Of a DNA stretch of 57,322 bases, positions 49,409 to 56,495 are shown piece by piece; positions within the stretch are counted from its first letter, which is position 1; the number at the start of each line of letters is the position of its first letter. Position numbers and translations under genes: made by a program. Source of the stretch: an uncultured Lachnospiraceae bacterium (GTDB taxonomy: Bacteria; Bacillota; Clostridia; Lachnospirales; Lachnospiraceae). The stretch spans positions 1 through 57,322 of the forward strand of contig CACWJQ010000012.1 in NCBI GenBank assembly GCA_902761225.1, written 5' to 3'. The notes beneath the pieces were generated by a model. The model did no database searches, was not told the DNA's origin, and saw nothing but the letters and a program-made list of their open reading frames with translations.

Positions 49409-50432
49409 CTTCTCTGCTTTCATCAATGATATTCATTACATACTCAAGTGCCCCAGGGTCTGCGATATGGGAAACCGCAGCTTCAAGCGATGCTCTTTCG
49501 AGTATCTTAAGTGCCTTATCCCTGTCTATGCCTCTGCTCATCATATAGAAGAGCATATCCTCTGCGGGCTTTCCGATGGAAGCACCGTGGCTTCCGGCAA
49601 CATTCTCCTCGGTACAGAGGATGAGGGGCACGGTCTTATTGATCACGGTATCGTCAAGTATCAGTACGCTTTCATTCTCCGCGCCGTCCGCACCTGCACA
49701 TCCCTTTACAAAGTCGATGGTTCCTCTGAAGGTCTTCTGCGCCTTCTTTGAAAGAGCTCCGCTTATATTTATCTCTGACTTTGAACGGGGAGCAAAATGC
49801 TTCATGACATAATTCATGTCGAGGGTCTCACCGTCCGTTCTTATAAGTCCGATCCTGCATCCCGCATAGGAATCCTCGCCTGTAAGCCCGGACCTGTAGC
49901 CCGCATTTATATTGCTTCCGCCTTTGAATATCTGTACAAGATTGACCTGCGCTTTATCGGATATAACGGTTCCGATATCATTTATAAACTCAAGTCCCTT
50001 ACCGGGTCTTATGACCTGTGTGAGATTGACCACGGAATCCTTCTCCGCTTTTATAAGAACCTGAAGGATCCCGGCAGCCTTTATATCCTCATCCGAAGTG
50101 ATATCCATAAGGATGTTAAGAGTCTTACCCTCTCCGGCTTCGAAGCATAGCACCTCGGCAGCGTCTTCCCTGTAATCCTTCTTTATGAGAGTCAGTTCTC
50201 CTGTGCGGGCATCTGCCTTCACAGGGCTTATTCCGCTTTTTGCAAGATATGCGGAAAGTTCCTCACCGCAGCCCGTTTCCATCTTCCATTCTTCTGCATC
50301 TGCCACGGGGGCTGTTCCTTCGGTTTTGCCCCGGGGCATGGATGCGGGAAGTTCTACATATGTTTCGTTTACCTTAAGCCTGTTCCATGTAGGAGGAACG
50401 AGGCTGTTTATCATTATCCTGTCAGCCATCAT
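49401..50432 (-). CDS. sufD: SufD-family Fe-S assembly protein
   Basis: 343 aa, beta-helix protein: VNLTQVIRPG, SYAGCRIGLIRTDGETLDM, KTFRGTIDFVKGCAG, EENVAGSHGASIGKPAEDML, and MLFYMMSRGIDRDKALKIL at the end, shared with SufB. It forms the SufBC2D complex. Slightly shorter than the E. coli protein (about 420). ATGA overlap with sufB. Confidence 0.94.
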   Translation of the reverse strand: MMADRIMINSLVPPTWNRLKVNETYVELPASMPRGKTEGTAPVADAEEWKMETGCGEELSAYLAKSGISPVKADARTGELTLIKKDYREDAAEVLCFEAGEGKTLNILMDITSDEDIKAAGILQVLIKAEKDSVVNLTQVIRPGKGLEFINDIGTVISDKAQVNLVQIFKGGSNINAGYRSGLTGEDSYAGCRIGLIRTDGETLDMNYVMKHFAPRSKSEINISGALSKKAQKTFRGTIDFVKGCAGADGAENESVLILDDTVINKTVPLILCTEENVAGSHGASIGKPAEDMLFYMMSRGIDRDKALKILERASLEAAVSHIADPGALEYVMNIIDESREDD

Positions 50433-51838
50433 CCTATGCTCCCCTTCATCTCAAGTCTTATCAGGTTGTTCATCTCTGCGGCATATTCCATGGGAAGTTC
50501 CCTGGAGACATTATCAGCAAAGCCGCTTACTATAAGGGCTCTCGCATCCTCTTCGGTCATCCCCCTGCTCATCAGGTAAAATACCGCATCGTCGGGAATG
50601 CTTCCTATGGAAGCTTCGTGTCCGATATCTGCATCATCGGTGCGGATATCCATTACGGGAATGGTATCCGAACGTGAGATGTTATCAACCATCAGGGATT
50701 CACAACTTACAACGGACTTGGCACCCTTTGCACCGGGCATTACCTGAACCGATGTCCTGGTAGTGCTTACTCCGCCGCTCTTTGCTATGGACTTGGTATT
50801 TACAACCGAGGAAGTATTTTTACCGACGTGCATGACCTTCATTCCGGTATCGAGGTTCTGTCCCTCTCCCGCAAATGTTATGCCGGTATACTCCATGGTT
50901 GAATTATCGCCCTTCAGTATGGTTGAAGGATACAGGTAAGAAGTATGGGATCCGAAGGAACCGGAGACCCACTCCATCCTTGCGTTTTCTTCGACGATAG
51001 CCCTCTTTGAATTGAGGTTGTACATGTTCTTGGACCAGTTCTCAATGGTGGAGTATCTGAGCCTTGCGTTCTTCGACACAAAGAGCTCAACGCAGCCCGA
51101 ATGAAGGTTTGCCACGTTATACTTGGGGGCAGAACATCCTTCGATGAAATGGAGATCTGCGCCTTCATCCACGATTATGAGGGTGTGCTCAAACTGTCCG
51201 GCACCCTTTGCATTCAGTCTGAAATATGACTGGAGAGGAATGGATACCTTGACTCCCTTGGGAACATACACAAATGATCCTCCGGACCATACGGCTCCGT
51301 GAAGAGCATTGAACTTGTGGTCTGTGGGAACAAGGAGCTTCATGAAATGCTCCCTTACCATATCGCTGTACTCACCCTTGAGTGCACTTTCGAAATCGGT
51401 ATATACGACTCCCTGTTCCTCAACCTCTTTCATTACATTATGGTAGACGAGCTCGGAATCATACTGTGCGCCGACTCCCGCTAATGACGCACGCTCTGCC
51501 TGGGGAATGCCCAGACGCTCAAAGGTATTCTTGATATCTTCGGGAACATCGTCCCATGAAGTCTGCATCCTGGTATTGGGCCTTACATATGTGGAGATAT
51601 GGTCCATATCAAGACCGTCTATTCCCGGGCCCCACTGCGGAACCTTCAGTTCCTTATAGATCTTCAGGCAGTTTAGTCTGAACTCTCTCATCCAGTCGGG
51701 ATCGTCCTTTTCTTCGGAGATCCTGCGGATGATATCCTCGTTCAGACCCTCTTCAAGCCTGGTCGCATTATCTTCTTTATCTATTACGTCGTAGACACTG
51801 CGGTTTATGTCATCGACGATGGTCTTTTCTTCACTCAT
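50429..51838 (-). CDS. sufB: Fe-S cluster assembly protein SufB
   Basis: 469 aa, the usual SufB length. GVVYTDFESALKGEYSDMVRE, in part; LNAKGAGQFEHTLIIVDEGA; SAPKYNVANLHSGCVELFV; EWVSGSFGSHTSYLYPS; then the C-terminal MSRGMTEEDARALIVSGF. AAGG before the ATG. It builds the cluster together with SufC and SufD. Confidence 0.96.
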   Translation of the reverse strand: MSEEKTIVDDINRSVYDVIDKEDNATRLEEGLNEDIIRRISEEKDDPDWMREFRLNCLKIYKELKVPQWGPGIDGLDMDHISTYVRPNTRMQTSWDDVPEDIKNTFERLGIPQAERASLAGVGAQYDSELVYHNVMKEVEEQGVVYTDFESALKGEYSDMVREHFMKLLVPTDHKFNALHGAVWSGGSFVYVPKGVKVSIPLQSYFRLNAKGAGQFEHTLIIVDEGADLHFIEGCSAPKYNVANLHSGCVELFVSKNARLRYSTIENWSKNMYNLNSKRAIVEENARMEWVSGSFGSHTSYLYPSTILKGDNSTMEYTGITFAGEGQNLDTGMKVMHVGKNTSSVVNTKSIAKSGGVSTTRTSVQVMPGAKGAKSVVSCESLMVDNISRSDTIPVMDIRTDDADIGHEASIGSIPDDAVFYLMSRGMTEEDARALIVSGFADNVSRELPMEYAAEMNNLIRLEMKGSIG

Positions 51839-51841
51839 ATA

Positions 51842-52585
51842 TTATGCCTTCAGATATTTCTCAAATCCGCTTTCATTGATCTCATCCACAAGGAATCTGT
51901 CTCCCTCAGCTACAACATGACCGTCAGCAATGACATGAACCCTGTCCACATTAAGGGCATCGAGGATCCTGGTGGAGTGGGTTATTATAAGAAGCGAACC
52001 TCCCACCTGCTCCTGATATGCCTTTACACCTTCGGATACGGTACGCACGGCATCGACATCAAGTCCCGAATCGGTCTCATCCAGGATTGCAAGCTTCGGC
52101 TTCATCATAAGAAGCTGAAGGATCTCGGCCTTTTTCTTCTCGCCTCCGGAAAAGCCCACATTGAGCTCTCTGTCGAGATATCCCGGATCCATATTGAGAA
52201 CCTTCATCTGCTCTGCGGCAGCCTTTTTGAAGTTCCAGAGAGACATCCTGTTTCCGAGAGCCTCACAGGAATTTCTGATAAACTCAGAAAGCCTTACTCC
52301 GGGAACCTCGATGGGATTCTGGAAGGACATGAAAAGTCCCTTCCTTGCTCTTTCATCGGTGGCCATTTCAAGCAGGTTCTCTCCGAAAAATGTCACGCTT
52401 CCGGAAGTTACCTCATATTCGCTCTTTCCCATGAGCGTATTTCCGAGAGTGGATTTTCCCGCTCCGTTCGGTCCCATGATGACATGGGTCTCACCCTCTC
52501 CGATCTCAAGATCAAGTCCCTTAAGGATCTCCTTGTCCTGAACCTTTACATGTAATTTTTCTACTTTTAAGATTTCCTGACTCAT
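51842..52585 (-). CDS. sufC: SufC ATPase
   Basis: 247 aa from the ATG at 52585 (AAAGG upstream; the frame reads to 52669 without support). ABC-type ATPase: Walker A GPNGAGKST, Q-loop FMSFQNPIEVPG, signature NVGFSGGEKKK, Walker B LAILDETDSGLD, and THSTRIL. It drives the SufBC2D complex. First gene of the operon, read from the promoter at 52641-52669. Confidence 0.96.
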   Translation of the reverse strand: MSQEILKVEKLHVKVQDKEILKGLDLEIGEGETHVIMGPNGAGKSTLGNTLMGKSEYEVTSGSVTFFGENLLEMATDERARKGLFMSFQNPIEVPGVRLSEFIRNSCEALGNRMSLWNFKKAAAEQMKVLNMDPGYLDRELNVGFSGGEKKKAEILQLLMMKPKLAILDETDSGLDVDAVRTVSEGVKAYQEQVGGSLLIITHSTRILDALNVDRVHVIADGHVVAEGDRFLVDEINESGFEKYLKA

Positions 52586-52640
52586 TTTTAAAAGCCTTTC
52601 AATAAAATAAAAACACTGTTTGTTGGGGCAAATCGTACCT

Positions 52641-52669
52641 ATTTTACTTGGTAAATGCCCATATTTCAA
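52641..52669 (-). promoter_or_regulatory. sigmaA-like promoter of the suf operon
   Basis: TTGAAA (-35, 52664-52669), 17-bp spacer, TAAAAT (-10, 52641-52646) on the minus strand, about 55 nt before sufC. An imperfect inverted repeat (GGGCAAAT at 52626-52633 and AAATGCCC at 52653-52660) spans it and could be an operator. Confidence 0.65.
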
Positions 52670-52856: not shown

Positions 52857-54440
52857 TTATGCCTGGGCCATGTTCAGGTTGTAATAGATTCCCTTCTTTG
52901 CCATGAGCTCATCATGCTTTCCGCTTTCAGCAATGCCTCCGTTTTCTATAACGAATATCCTGTCGGCATTCCTTATCGTAGAGAGCCTGTGGGCTATTAC
53001 AAATGAGGTCCTCCCCTGCAGTATAGTGGCTATTCCCTTCTGTACCATAAGCTCCGACTTGGTATCGATAGATGATGTAGCCTCATCAAGTATGAGTATC
53101 CTCGGATCGGAGATGATGGTCCTGGCAAATGCAAGGAGCTGCTTCTGCCCTGCCGAGAGTCCGCCTCCGCGTTCGGTAAGCTCTGTCTCGTATCCCTTCT
53201 CCAGCCTCATTATGAAGTCATGTGCCCCTACTTTCCTGCACGCTTCCTCAATCTCTTCGTCAGTCGCATCAAGCTTTCCGTATCTTATATTTTCCCGGAT
53301 GGTTCCGGTGAACAGGAAATTGTCCTGAGTCATTATACCAAGCTGGCTGCGGAGACTTTCGATCGACACATCCCTGACATTGCTGTCATCAATGAGTACC
53401 GTGCCTGTCTGCACATCATAGAATCTGGATATAAGGTTCACTATGGTCGTCTTGCCCGCACCGGTGGGACCCACAAGAGCTATGGTCTCTCCGGGAGTAA
53501 TGTCAAAGCTGACATCCTTCAGCACGGGGACTCCGTCCTCATATGAAAATCCCACATCCTTAAACCTTACTCTTCCGGTTATCTGCGGCATCTCGCCTAC
53601 AGCCTCCCCGTCCTTTATCTCAGGCTCAAGATCGATGATCTCAAAAACTCTCTCTGCAGCTGCGAGATTGGCGATTATCTGGTTATAGAAGCTTCCCAGA
53701 TTGGCTATGGGCTGCCAGAAAAGTGACAGATAACTGGTAAACGCAACAAGAAGTCCCACATTTGAAGCATCAATGTGCATCACCTTTATGGCAACATAGA
53801 GCATGCATACGATACTTATGGCGGTGCTCACCTCTATGACTGAGTTGAAAGCATCATTTACCCTGACTGCAAGTCCTGTGATAAGCAGCGGAAGTCCCAC
53901 CATTCCCGCAAGAGCAAGGCGGGGATTCTTGATCAGCATTATCACAACAACCGCGATCACGGTGATAAAGTCGGGGAGAAGTGTTATGACAAAGTTCTGA
54001 AGCACCTGCTTAAGGGAGTTGACATCACCCATCACACGGGACAGGATCTTACCTGTCGGACGTGAATCGAAGAACTTAAATCCCAGAGTCTGCAGGTGTG
54101 TGAACACCTCCTCACGGATATTCTGAATGATTGAGTTAGTCATCTTGCTCATCAGATACATTCTGATCTTGACAAGTACCACCTTCACCACGTTAAGCAG
54201 CAGCGCGATCAGCACCAGTATCACCATACCCTTTATATTACCCGGGGTGATGTAGTCATCGATGGCTGATTCTATGATGAGCGGGTTTACAAGGCTTATG
54301 CCCACACAATATGCCATGATCAGCAGCACTACTACTATTGTCTTTTTGTATCTGAAGAGATAACTCAGAAGTCTCTTGATGGTTATCGACTTTTTTACCT
54401 GCGATACCTCTTCATCGTCCTTTATTGAATTGGCGGCCAT
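52857..54440 (-). CDS. ABC exporter subunit with missing TM4-TM5 loop region (heterodimer partner)
   Basis: 527 aa; relatives and its partner are about 590. TM helices in residues 35-190, then LITGLAV joins directly to RVNDAFNSVIEVST. About 62 residues including the second intracellular loop, with its coupling helix, are absent. The nucleotide-binding domain (about 300-525) is intact: GPTGAGKTT, MTQDNFLF, LSAGQKQ, ILILDEATSSID with the catalytic Glu, and HRLSTIRNAD. It would be the catalytic-site partner of the upstream subunit. The joint is in frame and shows no stop. Overlaps the upstream stop by one base. Confidence 0.85.
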   Translation of the reverse strand: MAANSIKDDEEVSQVKKSITIKRLLSYLFRYKKTIVVVLLIMAYCVGISLVNPLIIESAIDDYITPGNIKGMVILVLIALLLNVVKVVLVKIRMYLMSKMTNSIIQNIREEVFTHLQTLGFKFFDSRPTGKILSRVMGDVNSLKQVLQNFVITLLPDFITVIAVVVIMLIKNPRLALAGMVGLPLLITGLAVRVNDAFNSVIEVSTAISIVCMLYVAIKVMHIDASNVGLLVAFTSYLSLFWQPIANLGSFYNQIIANLAAAERVFEIIDLEPEIKDGEAVGEMPQITGRVRFKDVGFSYEDGVPVLKDVSFDITPGETIALVGPTGAGKTTIVNLISRFYDVQTGTVLIDDSNVRDVSIESLRSQLGIMTQDNFLFTGTIRENIRYGKLDATDEEIEEACRKVGAHDFIMRLEKGYETELTERGGGLSAGQKQLLAFARTIISDPRILILDEATSSIDTKSELMVQKGIATILQGRTSFVIAHRLSTIRNADRIFVIENGGIAESGKHDELMAKKGIYYNLNMAQA

Positions 54441-56215
54441 TAGATCACCTCCTTCAGTTCTGCGGGCTCGCCGTATTGTGACACGTATGTCTCATAATAG
54501 AGCCCTTTCTTTTCCAGCAGCTCGTCGTGGGTCCCGCGTTCTGCGATCCTTCCCTCTTCGAGCACTATTATTTCATCTGCATCTTTTACCGAGCTTATCC
54601 TGTGTGCGATTATTATCTTCGTCATATCGGTAAGCTCTTTTAATCTCTTCTGGATATCACGCTCAGTCTCCATGTCCAGTGCGGAGGTTGAGTCATCCAT
54701 TATGAGGATCGGCAGTTCCTTGGCAAGGGCTCTCGCTATAGATATCCTCTGCTTCTGACCGCCGGAAAGTCCCACGCCTCTCTCACCGATGACCGTTTCG
54801 TATCCCTTGTCCATCTTGTCGATGAACTCGCTGGCACCGGCATTCTTACTGGATCTCTTTACGACCTCATCGCTGATACCGTGCCTCCGTCCCATCCTGA
54901 TATTCTCTGCGATGGTATCGGAGAAAAGGAACACATCCTGCATTACAAGGGAAATGCTTCCTCTCAGCTGCTTAAGGCTCAGCTTCTTTATGGGAACTCC
55001 GTCGAGGCGTATCTCACCCTCCGTAACATCGTAAAGTCTGGTAAGGAGCGATACGATGGAGGTCTTGCCGGCACCGCTGGCACCCATTATACCCAGAGTT
55101 TTTCCCGCAGGGACCTCAAAGGAAATGTCCTTAAGGATATCATGCATATCCTCCTTGTGAAAGCCGACACCGTCAAAGGTTACGGTTCCCTTCACCTTAT
55201 CCAGCACCACAGGATCCCCGGGATCGTTGATCGTGGAGACTTCGTCATAGATCTTGTTGAGTTTTTTCACGGAAGCGATCGCCTCGGAAAAACTGTTCGT
55301 AAGCCATCCGAGCATTTCCATGGGCCATACGATGTTGCTGGAATATGTGATATATGCCGTGATCACACCCAGAGTCATGCCGAACATTCCCTTAACATAG
55401 AATATTCCGCCGATCACGATCACAAGGAGCGGTACAATCCCGGATATGAACGAGAAGAAAGGATAATACTTCACGAACACCCTGGAAAGATCCACATTGA
55501 GCTCTTTGTATTTGTCGTTGTGCTTTTTGAACTTAAGCAGCTCGAACTTTTCCTTGGCAAAAGCCTTTACAGTCCTTACACCTGCAATGTTCTCCTCGCA
55601 GGTTGTATTGAGCACGGCATTTTCCTCGGATATATCACCGAATACCTTGTCCAGCTTCTTGTCCATCCTTACCGCGGTGATGCCGCAGAAGACGATGGCC
55701 ATTATGGGGATGATCGCCATATAGACATTCAGGCGGATCATACACACGATGATGAAGATGGTATACAGGAAGACTTCTATCAGGAGCATCGATATGAATG
55801 AAAGAGCCTCCCATACCTTGTCGATATCCTCCTTAAGCCTTGCCATGATCTCGCCGGTATTGTTCTTGTCAAAATAGCTGGTATCAAGACTCTGTATATG
55901 CTTAAACAGATCCCTTCTGAGACTGACTACCACCTTGGACGACACCGAGTCGAAATTGAATTCCTTGATGTACTGGAACATTGCCTTTAATAGTCCAAGT
56001 AACAGATAAGCTCCAAGGAACATCATAAGCTTGTCCGACTGCCCTCCCACAATGACATCATCCACTATATGTCTTGTTATCTCAGGCATTACCATTGAGA
56101 TGGCAACAACTATGATTATGGCCGAGAGCGCTATGGCATACTGCCACATATTCCGTTTAATATGTTTAAATAACTTAAAACCTGATTTCTTTTTCTTTAC
56201 TTCTTTTTCCCTCAT
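54440..56215 (-). CDS. ABC exporter subunit with degenerate ATP site (heterodimer partner)
   Basis: 591 aa from the ATG at 56215 (AAAGGA 10 nt upstream; an in-frame GTG lies nine bases earlier). Six TM helices (about 25-315). Its TM4-TM5 loop is complete: NTTCEENIAGVRTVKAFAKE. NBD: GASGAGKTS, VMQDVFLF, LSGGQKQ, Walker B ILIMDDSTSALD, where Asp replaces the catalytic Glu, as in TM287 of the TM287/288 pair. This is the hallmark of asymmetric heterodimeric multidrug exporters. The attenuator-like leader lies directly upstream. Confidence 0.93.
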   Translation of the reverse strand: MREKEVKKKKSGFKLFKHIKRNMWQYAIALSAIIIVVAISMVMPEITRHIVDDVIVGGQSDKLMMFLGAYLLLGLLKAMFQYIKEFNFDSVSSKVVVSLRRDLFKHIQSLDTSYFDKNNTGEIMARLKEDIDKVWEALSFISMLLIEVFLYTIFIIVCMIRLNVYMAIIPIMAIVFCGITAVRMDKKLDKVFGDISEENAVLNTTCEENIAGVRTVKAFAKEKFELLKFKKHNDKYKELNVDLSRVFVKYYPFFSFISGIVPLLVIVIGGIFYVKGMFGMTLGVITAYITYSSNIVWPMEMLGWLTNSFSEAIASVKKLNKIYDEVSTINDPGDPVVLDKVKGTVTFDGVGFHKEDMHDILKDISFEVPAGKTLGIMGASGAGKTSIVSLLTRLYDVTEGEIRLDGVPIKKLSLKQLRGSISLVMQDVFLFSDTIAENIRMGRRHGISDEVVKRSSKNAGASEFIDKMDKGYETVIGERGVGLSGGQKQRISIARALAKELPILIMDDSTSALDMETERDIQKRLKELTDMTKIIIAHRISSVKDADEIIVLEEGRIAERGTHDELLEKKGLYYETYVSQYGEPAELKEVI

Positions 56216-56252
56216 AAATCTCACATCCTTTATAACAACCCGAAAAGGCTAC

Positions 56253-56283
56253 AAAAAACCCCGGAAGGTTTAGCTTCCGGGGT
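56253..56283 (-). terminator. attenuator-type intrinsic terminator before the ABC exporter genes
   Basis: 10-bp perfect stem (ACCCCGGAAG at 56258-56267 with 56274-56283), 6-nt loop, six T on the minus strand. It lies between the leader ORF and the exporter start (56215), inside one transcript, so it can cut off exporter expression. Confidence 0.85.
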
Positions 56284-56334
56284 AAATGTCTTTCGGTGCG
56301 GTATGAACTTAAGCAATGATCGTCTGAGATCATA

Positions 56335-56418
56335 TCATACCATTAAAAACCCTTTTCGGAGGCTTATACTATATGAACTTACATTCCTGAGATCCGCGTA
56401 ATTTCTCATCTTTAACAT
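56335..56418 (-). CDS. 27-aa leader peptide of the ABC exporter operon
   Basis: Frame from ATG 56418 to TGA 56335, beginning MLKMRNYADLR and ending GFLMV, basic with three Ser/Tyr-rich residues in the middle. The ribosome site AGGAGG is perfect with 7-nt spacing, far better than those of the exporter genes. A hairpin (ATGATC at 56316-56321 with 56328-56333) starts 2 nt beyond the stop. It is read from the promoter at 56467-56495 and followed by the terminator at 56253-56283, the usual order of a ribosome-mediated attenuator. Confidence 0.7.
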   Translation of the reverse strand: MLKMRNYADLRNVSSYSISLRKGFLMV

Positions 56419-56466
56419 CTTATTGCCTCCTTTCTTTCAACTTAACTGTTTAGTAGTGACTTAAGT

Positions 56467-56495
56467 ACCATATCGAAAAAACGATTTTTTGTCAA
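56467..56495 (-). promoter_or_regulatory. promoter of the leader-exporter operon
   Basis: Perfect -35 TTGACA (56490-56495), 17-bp spacer holding ATCG-T6-CGAT, -10 TATGGT (56467-56472). Transcription would start about 40 nt before the leader ATG. Confidence 0.65.

Follow-up and report, generated by a model that had tools for sequence, protein, structure and literature searches.

The exporter locus and its leader

The window, by which we mean the whole stretch of 57,322 nucleotides analysed here, carries on its minus strand two overlapping ABC exporter genes, and between these and a tRNA/rRNA cluster lies a leader element (Table 1). Along the minus strand a promoter-like site, a strong Shine-Dalgarno (SD) sequence, a leader ORF, a hairpin, an intrinsic terminator and the two exporter genes follow one another. 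A preliminary description of this DNA had listed a promoter, AGGAGG at a 7-nt spacing, a 27-codon ORF, a terminator and exporter genes downstream, and all are present on this strand, with AGGAGG standing 7 nt ahead of the leader ATG at 56418. The promoter-like site consists of a -35 hexamer (TTGACA, 56495-56490), a 17-nt spacer and a -10 hexamer (TATGGT, 56472-56467). Such sites are not rare (two in the scanned region against a shuffle mean of 1.8); across the family, the best promoter score upstream of the leaders has a median of 10/12 compared to 8.4 in shuffles, and 28 of 41 score at least 10. When the whole window was searched against Rfam at the gathering score, only tRNA and LSU rRNA matches were returned, and no leader or riboswitch family. 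The fold of the whole region is mildly unusual (z of -1.81), with 9 of 200 shuffles folding at least as well.

The two adjacent genes encode ABC exporter subunits, one of which has a degenerate Walker B motif. This asymmetry is typical of heterodimeric exporters, such as TM287/288 and BmrCD, and we infer that the two subunits form a heterodimer. Solved relatives of the subunits include TM_0288 and, for subunit 2, also YheH; by analogy with the family the pair would probably export drugs. Subunit 2 is about 61 codons shorter, in frame and within the membrane domain (around residues 182-191), than all 10 relatives checked, which may be a real deletion or an assembly fault. Downstream of the exporter (50429-52669, minus strand) lie genes that by eye resemble SufC and SufB of iron-sulphur assembly.

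Within the leader, two pairings that are missing from the preliminary description appear decisive. The sequence GGAGGC (56430-56425), part of the leader's own SD and here called strand 1, is complementary to GCCTCC (56363-56358), part of a word inside the ORF that we call strand 2; in the window the duplex has an energy of -13.3 kcal/mol (p 0.01). The same word can alternatively pair with the 5′ arm of the terminator, strand 3 (56283-56272), whose stem lies about 50 nt past the leader stop codon. Between them is a hairpin that had been described as starting 2 nt past the stop codon. It exists, but is larger than was thought, its outer stem (GGTATGA:TCATACC, 56341-56335 with 56306-56300) including the stop codon itself; a consensus fold computed from 11 sequences retains the inner helix, with some both-sided changes. 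In the leader peptide, residues 3-5 are K-M-R.

Table 1. Features of the exporter locus, with positions in the window
Feature	Position	Strand	Evidence or remarks
Promoter-like site, TTGACA-17-TATGGT	56467..56495	-	10/12 consensus matches
Leader Shine-Dalgarno, AAAGGAGGC	56425..56433	-	Invariant in 11 aligned sequences; co-varies with in-ORF word across family
Leader ORF, 27 codons + stop, peptide MLKMRNYADLRNVSSYSISLRKGFLMV	56335..56418	-	ORF list
Strand 2, in-ORF word AGCCTCCGAAAAGGG	56350..56364	-	Duplex, co-variation, alignment, consensus fold
Hairpin around leader stop codon	56300..56341	-	Window folds; inner helix in 11-sequence consensus fold
Intrinsic terminator, stem + T tract	56253..56283	-	Stem 56283-56258, 10 pairs
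Strand 3, terminator 5′ arm ACCCCGGAAGCT	56272..56283	-	Predicted alternative partner of strand 2
Element C, CCTTTTCGG	56240..56248	-	Just past terminator; complement of CCGAAAAGG in strand 2
Exporter subunit 1, ABC membrane domain + ATPase	54440..56215	-	PF00664, PF00005; Walker B ILIMDD
Exporter subunit 2	52857..54440	-	PF00005, partial PF00664; Walker B ILILDE

Conservation in the genus and the family

Within the genus, 28 of the 31 genomes searched have an exporter match at E≤1e-100, with orthologues in only 11 (82-100% identity); two further genomes have a match at 51-53% identity, and the remaining ones, among the matches listed, are paralogues at 34-41% identity. One of the 11 orthologues (G020) is truncated by the end of its contig. 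The preliminary description had proposed a search for conserved leader ORFs upstream of homologues; an SD, a leader ORF and a terminator hairpin stand upstream of all ten orthologues with upstream sequence. In an alignment of these ten loci and one further relative (L050), AGAAAGGAGGCA and GCCTCCG-N-AAAGG are invariant and most of the ORF between them is variable. Applied to the 11 sequences without guidance, RNAalifold pairs GGAGGC with GCCTCC, and also finds the terminator and the hairpin after the ORF. Both-sided changes are seen in 6 of the 26 pairs and in none of the SD:word helix, as the latter is invariant in this set. Among named records the relatives belong to the Lachnospiraceae; many are rumen MAGs, and the isolates P6A3 (KL370861) and AC2028 (JNJD01000009) are also among them. 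The leader is also present at loci with different upstream neighbours.

Across 299 genomes of the family (298 genera), an orthologue at E≤1e-145 is found in 56. These gave 55 loci, a partial match (G109) being left out, of which 54 have upstream sequence and one (L075) lies at a contig edge. The SD pairs with a word in the ORF at p≤0.05 in 38 of the 54; the other 16 are split evenly between loci with a CCTC word in the best-ORF duplex and loci without one, and one of the former (L081) appears on visual inspection to be the tail end of a longer gene and not a leader. When genus, family and named records are considered together, a short ORF led by an SD occurs in 69 of 70 upstream regions, a few of them being poor candidates for a leader. 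The median SD:word pairing is -13.4 kcal/mol compared to -8.3 kcal/mol in shuffles, and reaches p≤0.05 in 52 and p≤0.01 in 32 of the 69. The set of 70 counts one locus under two records (L101 and L063), and L101 was left out of the co-variation, terminator and folding sets; for the short stretches L101-L125, exporter starts were taken from known match coordinates. A terminator hairpin of -11 kcal/mol or better is found at 45 of 52 family loci. One terminator finder missed L019, L020 and L022, whose terminators an earlier scan had found. Seven loci from several genera (L073, L105, L106, L110, L111, L119 and L125) have two tandem terminator-like hairpins between leader and exporter.

Several controls bear on the specificity of the arrangement. 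Upstream of 16 paralogous exporters from the same genus, a leader at p≤0.05 was found at none, and an SD-led short ORF is absent from 10; a seventeenth locus had too little upstream sequence and was left out. A pairing of -13 kcal/mol is reached by 5 of 33 ordinary window genes with good SDs compared to 49 of 69 leaders, the genes being considered on a fixed 75-nt stretch and the leaders on the whole ORF. A class-level protein search at E≤1e-170 found matches in 6 of 391 genomes, every one a member of this family. The exact word pattern occurs in 2 of 299 family genomes, both of the window's genus. A degenerate pattern matched 39 places in 38 of 230 genomes, from which no count of elements can be drawn, because the reversed control also matched many genomes.

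Co-variation and reading frame

Across the family the SD and the in-ORF word vary, and they do so together. We anchored the SD core GAGG on CCTC, which was possible in 50 of 68 loci, and compared the columns beside it with permuted partners. The first column reads C-G in 22 loci, T-A in 22, T-G in five and G-G in one, and is thus paired in 49 of 50, compared to a mean of 39.3 when partners are permuted, with none of 2000 permutations reaching 49. With the nine genus members removed it is paired in 40 of 41 (permuted 33.0, 0/2000). The third and fourth columns are also paired in excess (33 of 50 against 26.6, 0/2000; and 27 of 50 against 18.9, 15/2000). For the second no excess is seen (36 against 37.0), because its SD side is nearly constant; the fifth falls short of the chance level (12 of 50 against 16.8). 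These figures should be read knowing that an anchor on the best duplex favours paired neighbours, and that loci were treated as independent.

The word is read in all three frames among the relatives (26, 18 and 6 of the 50 loci; 25, 10 and 6 of the 41 that remain without the nine genus members), which argues that what is conserved in the leader is RNA and not peptide. Comparison of the loci thus establishes strands 1 and 2, their co-variation and their independence of frame at the level of the sequence. Selection on the C-terminal peptide SLRKG was considered and rejected, as the same nucleotides are translated in other frames, in the genus too (L016).

Predicted fold switch

For folding we used the 49 of 68 loci whose SD:word pairing reaches p≤0.1 and whose terminator is at least as stable as -11 kcal/mol, each folded as far as the terminator loop. 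Left free, these have a median of 7.4 expected SD:word pairs. If everything from the SD to +27 is masked to mimic a ribosome at the start, the median number of expected pairs between the word and the 5′ arm of the terminator rises from 2.6 to 6.5, and at least four such pairs, with either of two terminators, are predicted in 41 of 49 loci when blocked compared to 19 of 49 when not. Shuffling the arm lowers the blocked median to 3.28, compared to 7.76 for the real arm and loop, and 44 of 49 loci lie above their own shuffle mean; at the level of single loci, no more than one in 30 shuffles reaches the real value in only 23 of 49. Considered as a duplex, with the better of up to two terminators, the pairing of the word with the 5′ arm is stronger than with shuffled arms at p≤0.05 in no more than 21 of 49 loci.

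Folding with and without a ribosome footprint had been proposed in the preliminary description, and in the window a footprint at the start site raises the expected 2:3 pairs from 2.5 to 9.2 while the 1:2 pairs fall from 5.6 to 0. A ribosome on the word leaves neither pairing (0 and 0), and one at the stop codon leaves 6.0 pairs of 1:2 and none of 2:3, so that in these simulations the antiterminator would form solely with a ribosome held at the start of the leader. The predicted structure is AGC-C-TCCG-AAAA-GGGT : ACCC-CGGA-A-GCT, closed around the stop-codon hairpin, which is predicted to bring strands 2 and 3 together. For the window alone the word:5′-arm duplex has a p of 0.085, and the blocked control with shuffled arms gives 4.9 pairs, with 3 of 30 shuffles reaching the real value. 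The fold switch is thus an in silico prediction. A pairing of strand 2 with the 3′ arm of the terminator was tried and set aside, being weaker in the window than that with the 5′ arm (-8.4 compared to -13.7); in two relatives the order is reversed (L016, -16.4 compared to -12.9; L018, -14.5 compared to -12.3).

Element C and the repeat pair

A complement of nine bases between the leader ORF (56351-56359) and a site just past the terminator (56240-56248) had been pointed out earlier, and it is real. Taken alone it is weak, because inverted pairs of nine bases more than 60 nt apart occur in 40 of 500 shuffles. It recurs, though, in the genus: strand 2 pairs with element C at -15.3 to -21.0 kcal/mol in the ten loci, with p≤0.05 in nine (L022 has 0.068), and RNAalifold, again unguided, pairs the end of strand 2 with a site past the terminator. 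For L020 and L022 the region searched for C began before the terminator, and the best site still lies beyond it. These results support the complement as a conserved feature of the genus. Further out, three relatives give p-values of 0.098 (L050), 0.341 (L055) and 0.852 (L060), and the pairing reaches p≤0.05 in 7 of 41 wider-family loci, which is suggestive only. Element C cannot itself decide termination, because it lies past the terminator and is made after the decision.

The preliminary description had also proposed two imperfect copies of a repeated block. The shared words are present (TATGAACTTA at 56302 and 56372; CTGAGATC at 56324 and 56387), but a functional role did not hold up: the pair is lost in the 11-sequence alignment, direct repeats are matched in dinucleotide shuffles of the region (10 bases in 20 of 500, 8 bases in 248 of 500), and we rejected it as the switch. 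CTGAGATC also occurs within the terminator of the upstream tRNA-Phe (56525). We read the repeat pair as incidental.

Mechanism and alternative explanations

The reading that we favour, to which we give a probability of roughly 0.7, is that of a transcription attenuator that senses ribosomes and uses the leader's own SD as strand 1. A ribosome-sensing attenuator ahead of the exporter was already the proposal of the preliminary description, and the conserved leader, the SD-complementary word and the terminator support it; the repeat pair described with it is not supported as functional. By default, the SD (1) would pair with the in-ORF word (2), the terminator (3:4) would form, and transcription would stop before the exporter. 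A freely translating ribosome would cover strand 2 or reach the stop codon, and the terminator would form again. Should a ribosome be held on the SD and the start region by an antibiotic that acts at initiation or on the first codons, strand 1 would be occupied, strand 2 would pair with the 5′ arm of the terminator (3), the terminator would fail and the exporter would be transcribed. The rest of the leader peptide could then drift, because sensing would need only occupancy of the start region.

What holds the ribosome is where the peptide enters. The K-x-R at residues 3-5 in the genus suggests stalling with a macrolide or ketolide as one trigger, and K/R-x-K/R motifs are known, from the available portion of PMC8298421, to arrest ribosomes with ketolides and less strictly with erythromycin. 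Among the 58 leaders with SD:word pairing at p≤0.1, 18 have such a motif starting at residues 2-5, compared to 4.7 in shuffled peptides (0/2000), and 10 of 49 do so without the nine genus members, compared to 3.6 (3/2000). One could thus suppose that arrest is specific to the peptide, an early K-x-R stalling the ribosome with a macrolide as in the erm(D)/erm(K) and mef(E) leaders, and that the peptide is what has been selected. However, 40 of the 58 leaders have no early motif, L021 within the genus itself reads MIKLG, the rest of the peptide is unconserved and the conserved word falls in different frames, and we regard this explanation as unlikely. Since those 40 leaders do without the motif, we think that the general trigger would be any ribosome held at the start, of the kind shown for vmlR and reported for cplR, with macrolide arrest added in some lineages. 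Full independence of the peptide should nevertheless be claimed with caution, as the sequence of the vmlR uORF matters for lincomycin, according to a statement in the accessible part of PMC10201436.

Two other explanations place the control elsewhere. In mainly translational attenuation, similar to ermC, strand 2 and element C would control the exporter SD in the read-through mRNA and the terminator would be secondary. This would account for the strong strand 2:C pairing of the genus, which the consensus fold recovers unguided, but C as a gate on the exporter SD found no support: when the read-through RNA of ten loci was folded, almost no C:exporter-SD pairing was predicted and a ribosome block made little difference to the accessibility of the exporter SD, which in the window is unpaired to nearly the same degree in the free (0.51) and the blocked RNA (0.50), and few loci of the wider family have the strand 2:C pairing. 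We consider it improbable, and still more so a simple terminator that would shield the exporter from the tRNA/rRNA cluster upstream, with an incidental leader ORF. The element does follow the tRNA cluster directly, and short ORFs are common; but tRNA-Phe has a terminator-like site of its own (56537-56509), followed by a promoter-like site, and the leader recurs where the upstream neighbours are others, which leaves very little room for an insulator. The attenuator with the SD as strand 1 is the reading carried forward below.

Relation to known attenuators

A transcriptional attenuator reportedly precedes patAB, which encodes a heterodimeric ABC exporter of Streptococcus pneumoniae. Other parallels come from accounts of which the accessible portions can be compared. 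For vmlR of Bacillus subtilis, an antibiotic-stalled ribosome on a uORF frees an antiterminator, and the series of uORF, anti-antiterminator, antiterminator and terminator resembles the one proposed here (PMC9226507, in the part available). There, however, the uORF has three residues, its SD is described as single-stranded and outside the anti-antiterminator, and the gene encodes an ABCF ATPase. Here the leader SD would itself serve as strand 1 and pair with a word within an ORF of 27 codons, and an exporter gene follows. The cplR leader of Clostridioides difficile similarly has a short uORF in a repressed 5′ hairpin, and stalling forms an antiterminator; as far as the available text of PMC10201436 goes, it too has a three-residue uORF and an ABCF gene, and its terminator hairpin holds the SD of the main gene. 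No ABCF gene of the vmlR/cplR type lies downstream in the window; the gene there encodes an exporter, with a membrane domain.

Similar in gene content is bmrB-bmrCD of Bacillus subtilis, where a leader ORF and a terminator also precede a heterodimeric ABC exporter, and lincomycin and other ribosome-targeting drugs induce through translation of the leader (PMC4191407, available excerpts). In the bmrB description seen there, all three alternative stem-loops, the terminator included, lie within nucleotides 60-162; in contrast to bmrB, the terminator here is past the leader stop codon, and the leader SD itself takes part as a strand. The macrolide-responsive leaders of mef(E)/mel (PMC4335068) and tlrB (PMC6851288), in the portions open to us, share a terminator and an R/K-X-R/K motif, which is placed at the end of a short peptide, and those portions contain no description that we found of an SD-complementary word within the ORF. 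We take the element in the window to be real and conserved, and probably an attenuator of a type already known. Within the accessible parts of the open-licence literature, including catalogues of structured RNAs and attenuators, we found no description of the Lachnospiraceae element, nor of a leader ahead of Lachnospiraceae exporters whose SD serves as strand 1 and pairs with a frame-independent word in the ORF.

Possible spread and significance

A specific pattern, blind to the downstream gene, gave seven matches in 6 of 250 family genomes, compared to one for the reversed control, and five of the seven precede exporter orthologues. In the window's own genome (a 2.7-Mb assembly), a narrower pattern matches the window element only. 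The same kind of leader and terminator stands before an RsgA-type GTPase gene (L129:1500-2863; TIGR00157 at 158.6 bits, against a cut-off of 100), and, in another stretch, ahead of a small ORF and then an RqcH/EfbA-type gene (L133:1500-3087), the latter being cut by the stretch end, with both profile matches below their curated cut-offs. On the minus strand of L141, a leader-like ORF, an SD-complementary word and a terminator can be seen by eye before an ABC-exporter-like gene (1298-3). The first two cases hint at a translation-stress regulon, though two cases make a lead and not a regulon. We can offer only tentatively, as an idea that we hold less likely than its opposite, that the element belongs to a portable attenuator class, spread over the Lachnospiraceae and largely independent of the peptide, which would sense through the leader's own SD, switch through an anti-SD word in the ORF that is bound to no frame, and so report ribosomes trapped at initiation by any drug.

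The arrangement provides a search rule, namely a leader SD that is complementary to a word in its own ORF, which would find switches that searches based on the peptide would miss and would be useful where leader peptides are unconserved. If the favoured reading is true, common bacteria of the gut and the rumen would keep this exporter silent until their ribosomes are inhibited.
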